Below, one piece after another: positions 30,955-37,477 of a DNA stretch of 64,000 nt; the stretch's first letter is position 1, and the number at the start of each line of letters is the position of its first letter. The notes beneath the pieces are model-generated. The model was not told the origin of the DNA, did not search any database, and saw only the letters and a list, made by a program, of their open reading frames with translations. Both the position numbers and the translations under genes were made by a program. Location: contig CAMDOF010000006.1 of assembly GCA_945903465.1 (NCBI GenBank), positions 1 through 64,000 on the forward strand, given 5' to 3'. The stretch is from Opitutus sp. GAS368. Lineage in GTDB: Bacteria; Verrucomicrobiota; Verrucomicrobiia; Opitutales; Opitutaceae.

Positions 30955-31098
30955 GGGAGGGCAAAAAACGCTAGGTCAGCGACCACTCAAGAAAAAAAGA
31001 TCCCGTTTTTTCTGAGGAGCAAACGGGGCCGAGGGAGCAGGACGGAAAGCAGGCTCAAAAAATCATCTTAAACGAGCCAACCATGGGAGGCGAGGAGT

Positions 31099-31217
31099 CT
31101 GTCCGACTTAGCCGCTTGGAGGCGTTTAATGGATCAATAATCGGATTTTAATGAACTCAAACTCCCCAAAAATTGATTCCAGAGGGCCTTTATCTTCTCA
31201 AACCGAAAGGCTGCTAG
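31099..31217 (+). repeat. 3'-end structured repeat, copy 1
   Basis: A 119-base element about three quarters identical by eye to the reverse complement of 37212-37328. Shared blocks include GACTTAGCCG, AGGCGTT, ATGAACT, ATTGATTCCAG and CCGAAAGGC.GCTAG. It stands ten bases beyond the stop of the HlyD-family gene (31227). Read from that gene, GCCTTT and AAAGGC can pair, a stem that is kept in the other copy with different bases. Confidence 0.75.
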
Positions 31218-31226
31218 ACGCCGCGG

Positions 31227-32330
31227 TCAGCGCAACGCGACGTCGACGGGCTCACCGGGGCGGAGCTTCATACCGGCGGGCACCGATAAATGAACTCGCA
31301 AGCCCAACTCAACAAAGGGAGAGACCGGCAAGCGCATCGCGGAGAGAATCGAAGGAGAAACTGGCTCCAGCTGGGTGCCGACCATCAAAATTTTCGAGGA
31401 GCCGCTGAAGCGCTCGTTACCGCGGGTGAAGACTTCCGCGGATGAACCAGCCTTTAAATCGGCGGGAACGGGGTGGCGAATATACCCCACCAATCGATCT
31501 GAAAGCGGTGAGTTGATGCGAACAACCGGCTCGCTGGCAGCGACGGTTTCACCGACGCGACGAAGGACCAAAGAAACGGTGCCAGCCATTGGCGCGATCA
31601 ATGGGCAAGGAGCGAGTTGGGCTTCCGCCAGACTCAATTTGGCCTCCTGGACCTTGATCGCAGAAGCCAAAGCGGTTTCTGGGGCGAGGCCCTCCTTGAT
31701 CGCGGCAGGCGTGGCGTGGATTTTAAGGATCGGATCTAAGTGGGCGACCATCCCGGTTTCTTCGGCAACCTGCGCGGCCAAAACGTCGCGGTTACTTCTG
31801 GCCTGCTCAAAATTCTCTTCCGTGATCATTTTGAGGCGAAAGAGATTTTCCGCGCGAGCCAGATCCGCCTGCGCCTGCTGCAAGCGCACGCGCAGGCCAG
31901 CGAGCACGATACGATGGCTCATCGATTCAAGTTGGAGACGTTCAAACTCAATCGTCATCCGCTGACGATCGGTCGAGCCCTGCATGGTCGCAGACAGCAT
32001 CGCGACCTCCGCCCGGATGACCGCCAAGGTTGTTTCTAGAATCCGCGGATTAACCGCAACCACTTGGCCGATGACATCGCCGGCGCGGACCGATTGGAGT
32101 GAAACGACCTGGAGACTGGCGATCACACCCGCTTGGGCGCTACGAACTTCGGACTGAACAACCTCGGCCTCTGCGACCAAGGCCGTCGGAATGACCGAGC
32201 GGCTCCACAAAAAGGCAACTAAAGCCACGCCCAGCAGGAAAACGACGCGGGGAAGATAAAGCAGGCGGATCTCGCGCCAGCGCTGGGCAGGCGGGGTCGG
32301 GATCGGGCCCAAGATACGGGAGTCGCTCAT
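31227..32330 (-). CDS. HlyD-family secretion/efflux adaptor
   Basis: 367 residues. One membrane helix (about 27-46) follows a short cytoplasmic N-terminus. The lipoyl halves AEAEVVQSEVRSAQAGVIASLQV and CPLIAPMAGTVSLVLRRVGETV flank a long helical hairpin (about 110-220, heptad-rich, LQQAQADLARAENLFRLKMITEENFEQARSNRDVL). The C-terminus ends PGEPVDVALR. It is the third gene of the operon VTC-DUF4956-HlyD and starts nine bases after the DUF4956 stop. Partner channel and cargo are not encoded nearby. Confidence 0.88.
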   Translation of the reverse strand: MSDSRILGPIPTPPAQRWREIRLLYLPRVVFLLGVALVAFLWSRSVIPTALVAEAEVVQSEVRSAQAGVIASLQVVSLQSVRAGDVIGQVVAVNPRILETTLAVIRAEVAMLSATMQGSTDRQRMTIEFERLQLESMSHRIVLAGLRVRLQQAQADLARAENLFRLKMITEENFEQARSNRDVLAAQVAEETGMVAHLDPILKIHATPAAIKEGLAPETALASAIKVQEAKLSLAEAQLAPCPLIAPMAGTVSLVLRRVGETVAASEPVVRINSPLSDRLVGYIRHPVPADLKAGSSAEVFTRGNERFSGSSKILMVGTQLEPVSPSILSAMRLPVSPFVELGLRVHLSVPAGMKLRPGEPVDVALR

Positions 32331-32339
32331 GGGAGTAGT

Positions 32340-33023
32340 TTAAATCTCTGATTCATCAGCCGATTGAACACTGGAGACCCGATCGACGCCGGGAAGGGCG
32401 GCAAGCTCGGAGAGGAGTTCGGCGGCGCGCGCGGGATCGCGAAGGAGAACGCGATAGGAAAGATCGGCGCCCTCCATACCCGATCCAAAGTGCTGGTTAG
32501 CCACGTGCACCTTTAGACTGTGCCTCTCGAGGAGTAGCATCACGCCCGGTAACTCATCAGCCGTGCGCATCCAGCGTAGATTGAGGATCATATCGAAGCG
32601 GTGACGCGTGCCCGCGGCCGTCATCCACAGGAAGATGAAAAGTCCGGACAAGGCGAAGGCACCGACGACGGCAGTCGCGAATTTCTGGGTGCCACAACCC
32701 GTCCCGAGAATAATCACAGAAAGCACGTAACAGGTGTCGAGCGTATCGCGCAAAGCGTTACGAAAACGGATGACCGCAAAGACGGCGATAAGCCCGAAAG
32801 CCGTGACGAGATTGTTCGCCATGACGAGCAGAACGAGGGCCACCAGCACAGGCAGGACGATCAGCGAAACGACAAATGAACGGGAATAAGAGACGCCCGA
32901 ATGAGTAAGCACATACACCCAAGCGAAGGTCTGCCCAAAGAGGTAGGCGAGCACAAGGGCAAGAAAGAGCGAGACAAAGCTCGTGGGGGCTGATCCGAAA
33001 TCACCTTGTAAAAAAGCACTCAT
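32340..33023 (-). CDS. DUF4956 membrane protein
   Basis: 227 residues. About five hydrophobic segments occupy 14-135 (VSLFLALVLAYLFGQTFAWVYV; FVVSLIVLPVLVALVLLVM; TAFGLIAVFAVIRFRNALRDTLDT). The motif FAVIRFRNALRDTLDTCYV is the core I associate with DUF4956. The soluble C-terminal 90 residues look like an ACT/MgtC-type ferredoxin fold (ERHSLKVHVAN, LAALPGVDRVSSVQ). It overlaps the VTC gene by ATGA (33020-33023). Its function is unknown; the recurrent partner is a VTC-domain protein. Confidence 0.85.
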   Translation of the reverse strand: MSAFLQGDFGSAPTSFVSLFLALVLAYLFGQTFAWVYVLTHSGVSYSRSFVVSLIVLPVLVALVLLVMANNLVTAFGLIAVFAVIRFRNALRDTLDTCYVLSVIILGTGCGTQKFATAVVGAFALSGLFIFLWMTAAGTRHRFDMILNLRWMRTADELPGVMLLLERHSLKVHVANQHFGSGMEGADLSYRVLLRDPARAAELLSELAALPGVDRVSSVQSADESEI

Positions 33024-33874
33024 TTACGATTTGGGCCTAGAGAGGAACGTAATGCGGTGGAAGCGTCAAGCCAAGGCGCGCTGGTCGCGACGGTCGTTTC
33101 CGAGTTGCCCCATTGAAAGCCCGTCAGGCGCCGCGACACTTTACTATGGCCGAGCTTTTCGACCCCCTCGCCATATTTAGCGGCGCCCGAACTCTTCAAA
33201 TCGAAGCCGCGGACCATCTCTATCATCCACGTGGGCATTCGCTCAGTAAATTTAAGTTCAAGGATGACCACGCCTTTAAAGATCGAGGCTGGTTTCTTGA
33301 ATTTAGCCGACAAATCGCCGCCAAACTCCGGTTCAGCATGGACATTCCGATCCAAGGTCACCCGCACCGCGCCTTTGCCACCGCTGACATAGGCCTCGCG
33401 CATATAAGCGTTGTGGAGACGGGGCGCAGCCTGAAGTCGTTCGACCAATTGCCAGAAATCTAACAAGTCGGACCATTGCTGCGGGTTCCAAGCGTGGAGA
33501 TCGCCACGCGACGGACTGGCGCCGACGAGTAACGACCGGATGGCGTGCCGGCCGACTCGCGCGCGTTGTTTAACGATACCCTCATTAATCCGGTGCTTTA
33601 TTTCGAAATAAACGGGAGAGGCGGGATCCTCGTCGTAATAGCGAATGCGCAACTTGAAACGATTGCGCTCGCCGTTAGCCGCGGCGTGGTAGGTCGTCAG
33701 CTGATTCGAATCCAGATAGAGGGTTTGAACTTCGTAGGAATTATCCACTTTGCCGACCGCATTTTCATCTGGATCGAGATAACTGGTGAGGAAACTCCGG
33801 ACCTGCCGCGCGGTCTCTTCACTGACAATATACTTGATTTCGCGCCGTTGGCGCTGAGCGCGATCAACCTTCAT
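33020..33874 (-). CDS. VTC-domain protein (polyphosphate-polymerase-like)
   Basis: About 284 residues from ATG 33874; a GTG at 33901 would add nine. Basic and acidic tunnel motifs typical of VTC/CYTH-like triphosphate tunnel enzymes are visible: RREIKYIVSEE, YLDSNQLTTYHAAANGERNRFKLRIRYY, VYFEIKHRINEGIVKQRA and GVVILELKF. In yeast Vtc4 this fold polymerises polyphosphate from ATP (family knowledge). No membrane segment is seen; the coupled DUF4956 protein could supply it, by analogy with the membrane part of the VTC complex. Actual activity is unproven. Confidence 0.85.
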   Translation of the reverse strand: MKVDRAQRQRREIKYIVSEETARQVRSFLTSYLDPDENAVGKVDNSYEVQTLYLDSNQLTTYHAAANGERNRFKLRIRYYDEDPASPVYFEIKHRINEGIVKQRARVGRHAIRSLLVGASPSRGDLHAWNPQQWSDLLDFWQLVERLQAAPRLHNAYMREAYVSGGKGAVRVTLDRNVHAEPEFGGDLSAKFKKPASIFKGVVILELKFTERMPTWMIEMVRGFDLKSSGAAKYGEGVEKLGHSKVSRRLTGFQWGNSETTVATSAPWLDASTALRSSLGPNRK

Positions 33875-33904
33875 CTTTTGCCGAAAGAAAGCTAAAGACA
33901 CTGC

Positions 33905-33921
33905 TTGAGGTCAAGCCTCAA
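33905..33921. promoter_or_regulatory. TTGAGG/CCTCAA palindrome upstream of the VTC gene
   Basis: A perfect 6-bp inverted repeat with a 5-base spacer (TTGAGG-TCAAG-CCTCAA), about 30 bases upstream of the ATG chosen for the VTC gene. It could be an operator or an mRNA hairpin. Nothing else supports a specific regulator. Confidence 0.3.
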
Positions 33922-34395
33922 TCAGATTCGTTGAGGGTTTTTATCCACGGCCAGCGTCTCCGCCCACCTTGGGCGAACGGAGATTAGTAACCGAGGGAGA
34001 GCGGGCCGCGCTCACCTGGGATTGCGCGGCGCCTTGGTCGATAGGCGGTGGGCGTGGGGGGCGAGCGCGAAGGGCGACAACACCGCCCAATTCCTCGCCG
34101 CCATCACCACCTACCACCCCTGCTTGAACTTCACCCGTAAAACCGCTCCCGCGGCAACCAAACCCCGGCCGATCTCCTCGCCCTACGCGCCCCTCACGAC
34201 AGTCCCCAAATACTACTCCTTCCCCCCATCCTGCTCGATGCACCCGCCGCCGCCGCCCGCCGCTCGCCCGAATCCATCCTGCCCGACGCACCCCATTCCG
34301 CTCGATGCACCCCTCGGTCAGCAACGGCCCAGGACCTTCTGATCCTCGGGAAACGGGTCGACTTAAGCAGCGATACCGCCAACCATCAAACCACG
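33922..34395. other. divergent intergenic region, no gene seen
   Basis: C-rich sequence between the VTC operon and the secreted esterase-like gene. Frames on both strands are Pro/Ser or Gly/Arg-rich translations with no recognisable domain. The string GCTCGATGCACCC occurs at about 34233 and 34299 with a related copy between them. Promoters for both flanking transcripts must be here, but I cannot place them. Confidence 0.5.
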
Positions 34396-37215
34396 ATGGA
34401 CCGATTTTCTCGTTGCTCATTGCTGCTCTCGTTCGCCCTCGCCGCCGACCTTTTTTGCTCACTGAGGGCCCAAACCGCAACCAGCGTAACACTGGGAGGA
34501 ATCACTTTTTCGCATAAAGGGCTCGTCGGCGTCGGGCGGATCGACGCCAGCAAACGCGATCAGCAAGGCGAGACCTTGGGATCGCTCTCTGGTCTTGCGC
34601 TGGACGTGCGCAGTTGGCAGCGCATTAGCAGCGGAACGTACTCGGGCACGCTGTACAGCCAGCCCGACCGCGGATACATCAAAGCCAGCGTCTCCACGCC
34701 CTACCTGCCTCGCCGACAGAAATTCGTTTTCGACTTCAAGCCAGACACGAACGGCTCATCCAAGCAAGATCAGCTCACTCTTACGCTAAGCGCGACGACG
34801 CTATTGAGCGAAGCTAACGGGACCGCGCTCACATCCCTTGACCCCACGACAACAGGCGCGGCGACGCGTACGGGGTTCCCCAAATTGCCACAAGCGTACA
34901 ATGGTCGAATCGCCATCGACCCCGAGGGGCTAGCCCTGATGCCTGACGGCACGTTTTTCGTCAGCGACGAATACGGGCCCTACCTTTATCGCTTCTCTGC
35001 TAGCGGCGCACTGCTCAGTGCGGTGCGCCCACCCGAAGCGTTCATTCCCAAGCGTGGCGGGCAGGATTCATTTTCATCCGACAGCCCCGCCGCCGGCCAA
35101 GCCTCGCCCAATCCCAGCCAACCCGACGCCGGGCGCGAAAATAGCCAAGGGCTCGAAGGTCTCAGCGTCTCGGCCGACGGGCGTTGGCTTTATGCGATGA
35201 TGCAATCTGCCACCCGGCAAGACGGTGGAACCGGCGGTAGCGGCCAGCGCCGGTTTACCCGTCTGCTCGAATATGATCTCACCAATCCCGCGGCGCCGAA
35301 TCTCACCGGTGAATGGATTCTGCCATTGCCCCTCTACTCCAACAACGGCACCGCCGCAGTCGCCTCGGTGGGCGACATTGTGACGCTCAGCCGCCGCCAT
35401 TGCCTAGTCCTGACGCGCGACGGCAACGGACGAGGCAGCGACGTCACGCGCTCCCTTTACCGCGCCGTCCTCATCTACGACCTCGCCAACGCCACCAACA
35501 TCGCCGGCACCGGCTTCGACAATCCCAACACGCCGGCCGCACCGAATGGAGTACTCGCGGGCGGCATTACACCCGCCACTTCCGCCGTGCTGATTGACAT
35601 CAACGAGGCGACGCAGTTGACGAAGTTTAATCTCAACAACAGCGCGAGCGACAACTCTGACACGCTGGCCGAAAAATGGGAGAGCCTCGCGCTCGCTCCG
35701 GCCCTCGACGCCACGACTCCGGACGATTTTTTTCTATTCATCGGTAACGACAACGACTTCTCCAGCACGAATGGATTTCAAGACGGCTCCGCCTACAAGG
35801 CCGGCCAAAACATCGATACGATGGTCCTCGCCTACCGCGTGACCCTACCCGGCACCGCCACCCTGCCCAGCATCACGAATCAACCCATCGGCACCGCGGT
35901 CGCCCTCGGTCGATCCGCCAGTTTCAGCGTCACCGCCTTGGGTAGCCCGTCCCCGACTTATCAGTGGAGTAAAAACGGACAGGAAATCGCGGGTGCGAGC
36001 ACCGCGACGCTGGCCATTACCAACGCCCAAGCCAGTGACGGCGCTTTTTATAATGTGACGGTCACAAACGTAAGTGGAGCGGTTGCGAGCACGAGCGTTC
36101 TGCTGACAATAACCGGAGCCAACTCCCCCATTTTCACAGTCCAACCTTCTGCGCAAACCGTCGCCACCGGCAGCACCGTTGTTTTTACCGCGGCGGCCAG
36201 CAACTCCCCTTCGTATCAGTGGCGGCATGACGGCGTCCTGGTCGGCGGAGCCACCAGCCGGATGTTGGCGCTCCGCAATCCGAGCAACGCGAACGCGGGT
36301 CTCTATACCGTGACCGCGACGAACCCATCGGGAATCACGATAAGCAATGCCGCACTCCTCACAGTGCTCAACAGCGCCGCCAGTGAAGTCGGGCGCTTGA
36401 TTAACCTCTCGATCCGCACGACCCTGAGCGTCAGCGATCCGTCGTTCACAATGGGGACGGTTCTCGGCGGAACGGGTACCAGCGGGACCAAGCCATTGCT
36501 AGTGCGCGCCGCGGGACCCTCCCTCGCGCTCTTTGGGATCACCGATGCCCTGGCTGATCCCAAGGTCGACATTTTCACGGGCTCGACCGTTTTTGCGACG
36601 AACGACAACTGGGAAGGGGCCGCCGCCCTCAGCGCGATTTTCAGTCAAGTGGGCGCCTTTGCCTACAACGGCCCCGCCTCCCGGGATGCCGCTGTTTATA
36701 ATGCGGCGATCGCCGCGCGCGACTATACGATAGAAGTTCGCGGCGTGGGTAACGCCGCCGGCACCGTTTTGGCCGAGCTTTACGACGCGACCCCGGCGGC
36801 GGGATTTACCGCTGCGACGCCCCGGCTGGTTAATGTCTCGGTGCTAAAGATTATTCCAAGCGGCAGCACCCTTTTCGCCGGCTTCGTCATCGGCGGCACG
36901 ACGGCAAAAACCGTCCTCATCCGCGTCATCGGGCCCCGCCTAGCGCTCAGTCCCTTCAGCATCGGCGACGCCATGGCCGATCCCAGGCTCGAACTTTACG
37001 CCGGCAGCGCCGTCGTCGGCAGCAATGACAACTGGGAAGGTGACCCGCAATTGACCACGATCGGGACCAGCGTGGGCGCGTTTGCGGTCACGGATGGCAG
37101 CAGTCGCGATGCGATGCTCCTCGTCACGCTGCCGCCCCGCGATTACACGGTGCAAGCCACCGGCGTAAACAACAGCAGCGGGCGCGCCATTGTCGAAGTC
37201 TACGAAGTGCCCTAG
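34396..37215 (+). CDS. secreted esterase-like (phytase-family) protein with Ig-like and duplicated C-terminal domains
   Basis: 939 residues with a signal peptide. Domain 1 (about 30-480) has GLSGLALD, YNGRIAIDPEGLALMPDGTFFVSDEYGPYLYRF and NSQGLEGLSVSADGRWLYAMMQS, the beta-propeller pattern of the esterase-like activity of phytase family. Two Ig-like domains follow (about 490-660; YQWSKNGQEIAGAS and YQWRHDGVLVGGAT). The rest is a roughly 135-residue domain repeated twice: LINLSIRTTL...LLVRAAGPSLALFGI...NDNWEG and LVNVSVLKII...VLIRVIGPRLALSPF...NDNWEG. The substrate is not known. It is the first plus-strand gene of the secreted cluster, and the structured repeat begins at its stop codon. Confidence 0.85.
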   Translation: MDRFSRCSLLLSFALAADLFCSLRAQTATSVTLGGITFSHKGLVGVGRIDASKRDQQGETLGSLSGLALDVRSWQRISSGTYSGTLYSQPDRGYIKASVSTPYLPRRQKFVFDFKPDTNGSSKQDQLTLTLSATTLLSEANGTALTSLDPTTTGAATRTGFPKLPQAYNGRIAIDPEGLALMPDGTFFVSDEYGPYLYRFSASGALLSAVRPPEAFIPKRGGQDSFSSDSPAAGQASPNPSQPDAGRENSQGLEGLSVSADGRWLYAMMQSATRQDGGTGGSGQRRFTRLLEYDLTNPAAPNLTGEWILPLPLYSNNGTAAVASVGDIVTLSRRHCLVLTRDGNGRGSDVTRSLYRAVLIYDLANATNIAGTGFDNPNTPAAPNGVLAGGITPATSAVLIDINEATQLTKFNLNNSASDNSDTLAEKWESLALAPALDATTPDDFFLFIGNDNDFSSTNGFQDGSAYKAGQNIDTMVLAYRVTLPGTATLPSITNQPIGTAVALGRSASFSVTALGSPSPTYQWSKNGQEIAGASTATLAITNAQASDGAFYNVTVTNVSGAVASTSVLLTITGANSPIFTVQPSAQTVATGSTVVFTAAASNSPSYQWRHDGVLVGGATSRMLALRNPSNANAGLYTVTATNPSGITISNAALLTVLNSAASEVGRLINLSIRTTLSVSDPSFTMGTVLGGTGTSGTKPLLVRAAGPSLALFGITDALADPKVDIFTGSTVFATNDNWEGAAALSAIFSQVGAFAYNGPASRDAAVYNAAIAARDYTIEVRGVGNAAGTVLAELYDATPAAGFTAATPRLVNVSVLKIIPSGSTLFAGFVIGGTTAKTVLIRVIGPRLALSPFSIGDAMADPRLELYAGSAVVGSNDNWEGDPQLTTIGTSVGAFAVTDGSSRDAMLLVTLPPRDYTVQATGVNNSSGRAIVEVYEVP

Positions 37216-37328
37216 CGGCCTTTCGGACTTAGGGAATCAAGGCCACTGGAATCAATACTCGGGGATTTTTAGTTCATAAAAAGTCGAATGGTGAACCATT
37301 AACGCCTGCAAACGGCTAAGTCCGACAG
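37212..37328 (-). repeat. 3'-end structured repeat, copy 2
   Basis: A 117-base element, about three quarters identical by eye to 31099-31217 when reverse-complemented. It begins within the stop codon of the 939-residue protein. It is bounded by a perfect 10-bp inverted repeat, TCGGACTTAG (37224-37233) and CTAAGTCCGA (37317-37326). Internal stems are GGCCTT/AAGGCC and AATGG/CCATT. It lies about 150 bases before the next gene. Confidence 0.75.
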
Positions 37329-37477
37329 CCTCGTGGTTCAGCTCTTGGTTGCTCGCAGCAGGAGTTGAGGCCGGCCACGCGGGCTCCAACGATGGCGGCT
37401 CTCGAAAAACTCTGGGCGACGTTAACTCGATCTTAAGCACGCTTGCAGTGGCGCGGCGGGCGACCGAATCTCGCGAA

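Follow-up and report, generated by a model that had tools for sequence, protein, structure and literature searches.

A repeat of about 122 bp, present in at least 83 copies in an 8.16-Mb Opitutaceae draft genome (G000), is very probably a non-autonomous MITE of the IS1182 family that is served by an IS1182 transposase in trans and inserts at CTAG. Two copies lie in the window (the whole 64,000-nucleotide stretch of DNA analysed). A sequence-only reading of this DNA had noticed the pair, in opposite orientation and aligning end to end at about three-quarters identity, and we find both as described, with 78% identity over query positions 1-123 (E = 4.6e-20, genome search). The boundaries then proposed were right in position and slightly short in extent, since, edge 4-mers included, the terminal repeats reach 31091 and 37336. 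A perfect 10-bp inverted repeat reported for copy 2 is present, and the TAG of the plus-strand esterase-like gene does fall in the CTAG of that copy. The features of the two loci are as follows.

31091..31217, plus strand: MITE copy 1, edges included (CGAG left, CTAG right); 98.5 bits, E = 1.1e-27
31091..31111, plus strand: left terminal inverted repeat of copy 1 with its edge 4-mer; two mismatches against CTAGNAGNCTGTCGGACTTAG
31197..31217, minus strand: right terminal inverted repeat of copy 1, degenerate, with CTAG at its end
31227..32330, minus strand: HlyD-type adaptor gene (HlyD_3, 26.8 bits against a cut-off of 22.2), its TGA stop 9 bp from copy 1
37212..37336, minus strand: MITE copy 2, edge 4-mers counted in; 102.9 bits, E = 4.9e-29
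37212..37232, plus strand: right terminal inverted repeat of copy 2, with CTAG edge, containing one arm of the perfect 10-bp inverted repeat
37213..37215, plus strand: TAG stop of the Ig-domain/esterase-like gene (34396-37215), within the edge CTAG of copy 2
37316..37336, minus strand: left terminal inverted repeat of copy 2, containing the second arm of the perfect 10-bp inverted repeat

Copy number and divergence of the repeat family

With copy 1 as query, the genome returned at least 40 matches (40 of 64 first-look candidates scored). An alignment of 30 copies taken from this search provided a profile, built from sequence alone, that retrieved the 83 copies at E ≤ 0.01; this number is a lower bound, 150 of 2031 first-look candidates having been scored. 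Further genomic copies, on which the sequence-only reading had staked its proposal, are thus abundant, and their number closes the question of chance occurrence.

Sixty-six copies are near full-length (at least 70 bits and at least 108 bp) and range from 111 to 136 bp. Their mean pairwise identity is 0.77, and 0.85 to the consensus; no two are identical, the best pair agreeing at 95%. The copies appear to be old and, for the most part, immobile at present. None carries a transposase gene: the longest stop-free frame is 44 aa, at most the element itself, and one frame is open from end to end in 42 of the 66. The consensus has a GC content of 46.7%, against 57.1% for the window, with the middle of the element AT-richer, and includes an inner GCC..GGC hairpin of three pairs. 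What looks like a second candidate MITE family, with related but different terminal repeat pairs (GGACTGAG / GGACTTTA) spanning 137-138 bp, was seen at three loci of G000 (C11:27317-27454, C28:45657-45793 and C50:38410-38547).

Terminal repeats and insertion sites

At either end of the element lies an imperfect terminal inverted repeat of 17 bp, with CTAG outermost; in one orientation the ends read about CTAGGAGTCTGTCGGACTTAG and CTAAGTCCGACAGGCTGCTAG. A terminal repeat pattern (AGNCTGTCGGACTTAG, up to two mismatches) matched the genome 129 times, against 8 matches for a reversed control, and the two arms pair in 85.8% of cells, compared with 23.5-45.4% when slid by 1-3 columns. The arms lie about 90 bp apart in the unit of about 122 bp, a layout that rules out a REP element. 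REP elements are described in the available part of PMC3733652 as palindromes of 20-40 bp; our repeat resembles them in being dispersed and mostly intergenic and in having inverted repeats, but a REP is one short palindrome, whereas here two distant terminal repeats delimit the unit.

Edge 4-mers were compared in 49 copies with clear ends; of the 34 copies left out of the 83, 17 scored below 70 bits and another 17 matched an end at fewer than 13 of its 17 positions. The C on the outside and the G on the inside are retained in 42-45 of the 49, the middle T in 20 (left) and 31 (right), and the middle A in 36 (left) and 31 (right); the two central letters of the CTAG have been lost more often than the letters around them. 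We infer CTAG to be the insertion target.

Duplication of a target is not detectable across the set: the 4-mers on the two sides of a copy are the same in 6 of the 49, against 5.9 in shuffled data, and no longer direct repeats surround these copies. Single loci can be read more closely. One copy (C128:1759) sits in another dispersed repeat, empty copies of which read ATTGCTAGGAAACTGG elsewhere; the filled site has ATTG-CTAG before the MITE and CTAG-GAAACTGG after it, and its flanks continue as in the empty copies, at other loci of the same genome, with nothing lost at CTAG. A copy in the same host repeat at C307:3708 has CTCG on both sides, the host repeat occurring elsewhere in the CGAG form. 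These two copies are compatible with a 4-bp duplication; in two more, in the same host repeat on C11 and C100, the left and right 4-mers are unlike.

This host repeat, a second dispersed repeat of G000 reading approximately TTATTGCTAGGAAACTGGATTTGCGGGGGGGAGGGGTTTAAGGGGAGGGGCATGG, gave 48 matches at E ≤ 1, 46 of them below 5e-4, on C307, C128, C130, C13, C61, C144 and other contigs, often clustered and with variable left flanks. Several MITE copies occupy its CTAG.

Gene context and stop-codon overlap

A simple codon-usage caller placed genes on either side of 67 of the 83 copies: 31 of these lie in 3'/5' gaps, 20 in 3'/3' and 16 in 5'/5'. For the other 16 it placed no gene on at least one side within the sequence analysed. 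Flanking sides over all copies comprise 76 gene 3' ends and 73 gene 5' ends, so that a general attachment to gene 3' ends, as the sequence-only reading had proposed, is not borne out; what stands is an excess at close range, with 25 3' sides to 11 5' sides within 60 bp and 13 to none within 10 bp. This excess is largely one of exact stop overlap. In nine of the 83 copies the edge CTAG supplies the TAG stop codon of a called gene, and these nine are among the 25 close 3' sides. Uniform intergenic placement would lead one to expect, roughly, 0.24 such overlaps. Among non-genic CTAG sites, stops make up 9 of 76 in the flanks (counted under a wide mask with duplicates removed; a first count of 11 of 90 may include a site at an element edge and overlapping stretches) and none of the 18 in the window. 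Given these proportions, 8-10 stop overlaps are predicted if CTAG is the target, and the nine found are in line with CTAG targeting. No copy lies inside a gene (0 of 83), a weak indication, as an interrupted gene would in most cases have been called as separate pieces.

In four of the nine stop-overlap genes the matching models reach the C-terminus: RecA and RecJ above the cut-off, and an MsbA-type ABC exporter and a Zn-alcohol dehydrogenase below it. A DEAD-box helicase and an HHH/S1 protein, which we take to be Tex, have complete core domains, and for the remaining three (a type III polyketide synthase, a TPR/cytochrome protein and the Ig protein of the window) the models do not inform on completeness. 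The output of the caller includes at least one likely spurious ORF, of 147 aa at C143, antisense to an apparent IS66-type transposase.

In the mechanism we propose, an IS1182-family DDE transposase, provided in trans, would bind terminal inverted repeats of the form (G/C)AG(T/C)CTGTCGGACTTAG and insert the element of about 122 bp at CTAG sites. Copies placed outside coding sequence would survive; as some non-coding CTAG sites are stop codons, some copies would come to lie exactly on a stop, where the edge CTAG would restore an in-frame TAG and the length of the gene would be kept.

An IS1182-type element could instead replace stem-loops, such as terminators, in the manner of IS1272, an IS1182-family member that is reported, in the available part of PMC5678879, to replace inverted repeats without duplication. 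The lack of detectable duplication across our set accords with this, and replacement could place copies near 3' ends, where close sides are in excess (25 to 11 within 60 bp). We nevertheless consider it unlikely, and do not favour it, given the gap types, the stop overlaps and the C128 flanks: gaps between convergent genes (20 of 67) and between divergent genes (16 of 67) are both occupied, nine copies lie on the stop codon itself, upstream of any terminator position, and the C128 flanks are continuous with empty host-repeat copies at other loci, with no loss at CTAG. Our element differs from IS1272 in that insertion at CTAG is the reading its sites suggest. A further idea, that the MITE is a stop-codon-safe inserter, taking over the CTAG at the stop codons of core genes such as recA and recJ, leaving an in-frame TAG and giving these genes a shared new 3' end of possible use to the host in termination or mRNA decay, strikes us as decidedly doubtful.

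Candidate transposase, RNA tests and distribution

In a congener (G019), an IS has the same ends on both sides (L044, 785-805 and 2588-2608) of a 468-aa ORF. This ORF matches the NCBIfam IS1182 model (NF033551) at 327 bits, against a cut-off of 270, and the Pfam models DDE_Tnp_1, DDE_Tnp_1_6 and DUF772; against IS5 models it scores 46 bits for a cut-off of 140 and 34 for a cut-off of 275. Several contigs of G001 carry the end CTAGCAGCCTGTCGGACTTAGCCGC, followed by the start of an IS1182-like transposase, and stop soon after. In the MITE's own genome, decayed IS1182 pieces adjoin MITE-type ends at C96 (with stops) and C173, the latter a 5' fragment abutting a MITE copy; no intact IS1182 transposase was found in this draft assembly. 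Three contigs of G000 (at C5:112407, C328:3562 and C178:128-148) break off inside IS-like left ends that open with the MITE terminal repeat and have an inverted second copy of it further in, C5 and C328 being the same there; these breaks suggest a collapsed multi-copy IS.

Among 27 genomes of the genus, the 21-base end (up to two mismatches) is present in nine, transposase matches, often fragments, in nine, and both together in eight (hypergeometric p = 3.5e-5, uncorrected for kinship); G023 has ends and no transposase match. The NCBIfam IS1182 model matches 10 of the 27, seven with ends and just two above the cut-off, a count made less telling by the 6 of 14 control genomes that match too. 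From the likeness of the ends and their co-occurrence with the transposase in eight genomes, we infer that the MITE is probably moved by an IS1182-type transposase. It resembles the IS1182 family in that its ends bound an IS of the congener with an IS1182 transposase and in its repeat length of 16-17 bp (we take the 16/16 in the ISPse1 table row, in the available part of PMC3281130, as repeat length and the 4 as direct repeats); it is unlike the family in being without a transposase.

Movement by another transposase family, for example of IS5 type with CTAG/YTAR targets, we regard as very improbable. Such a reading draws on MITEPsy1 of Pseudomonas syringae, which has, in the available part of PMC3189936, a length of 100 nt, 18-nt repeats, a 4-bp duplication of CTAG or YTAA and a suggested parent in ISPsy2; our element is like it in size, terminal repeat length and CTAG edges, and unlike it in terminal repeat sequence (compared by eye) and in that matching 4-mers here stay at the shuffled level, whereas duplication is reported for MITEPsy1. 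The tie between our MITE and IS1182 also lies in the ends, not the interior; but the IS that has these ends on both sides encodes an IS1182 transposase, and the IS5 models fall far below their cut-offs.

The copies give no sign of a conserved RNA fold. RNAalifold on 30 copies found three pairs, none compensatory. The terminal stem (16 pairs, 478 cells) is 85.8% paired, compared with 86.1% after shuffling of the 3' letters, and shows double changes at one pair, against 1.9 in shuffles. As neither value exceeds that of shuffles, changes in the two terminal arms are independent, as expected of decaying transposon ends and not of RNA under selection. The compensatory change that the sequence-only reading had seen in an internal stem disappears on wider comparison: the internal stems of both window copies lie in one register, and double-change pairs number 0 or 1 (two registers, 30 copies), against 0.1 and 0.8 in shuffles. 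At gathering thresholds Rfam matched tRNA alone in the window and assigned the repeat to no family. A structured 3'-UTR RNA element or riboregulator with its fold under selection is rejected by these covariation counts and is extremely unlikely, even though both window copies adjoin a gene 3' end, close sides favour 3' ends and each strand of copy 2 has a better fold than its shuffled versions (z -2.69 and -2.28), for copy 1 folds no better than shuffles on either (z -0.17 and -0.66) and the sides overall are about even. Terminator-like sites (a GC stem followed by a T run) number nine between 30900 and 37600, against 8.4 expected, with none inside either window copy, which rules out a terminator-like module for both. 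Of the RNA element, terminator and REP/MITE options raised at the outset, the MITE is the one upheld.

The distribution of the MITE is patchy. BLAST with one copy matched 3 of 38 relatives, its own genome included (G000, G019 and G003). A profile survey of 273 genomes of the order, drawn evenly and including few congeners, under stricter filters and with 12 candidates scored per genome, recovered its own genome; the four further genomes that were hit, at 16.8-18.0 bits, we regard as chance matches. Carriage by plasmids or phages finds no support in the 72,556 plasmid and 50,697 phage records, none of which matched at E 1e-5; nor did the exact pattern match among genome contig records, where those of its own genome may be absent.

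MITEs of this kind are already known and ordinary; the family itself is new, and in the available portions of the open-licence literature we found no IS1182-related MITE described from Verrucomicrobia. A repeat that might pass for structured RNA is hereby accounted for, and tied to a named transposase family in Opitutaceae. An element that targets CTAG would have a simple, low-cost way to spread, since non-coding CTAG includes stop codons and insertion there restores a stop; this overlap with stop codons is the single feature that may interest specialists.
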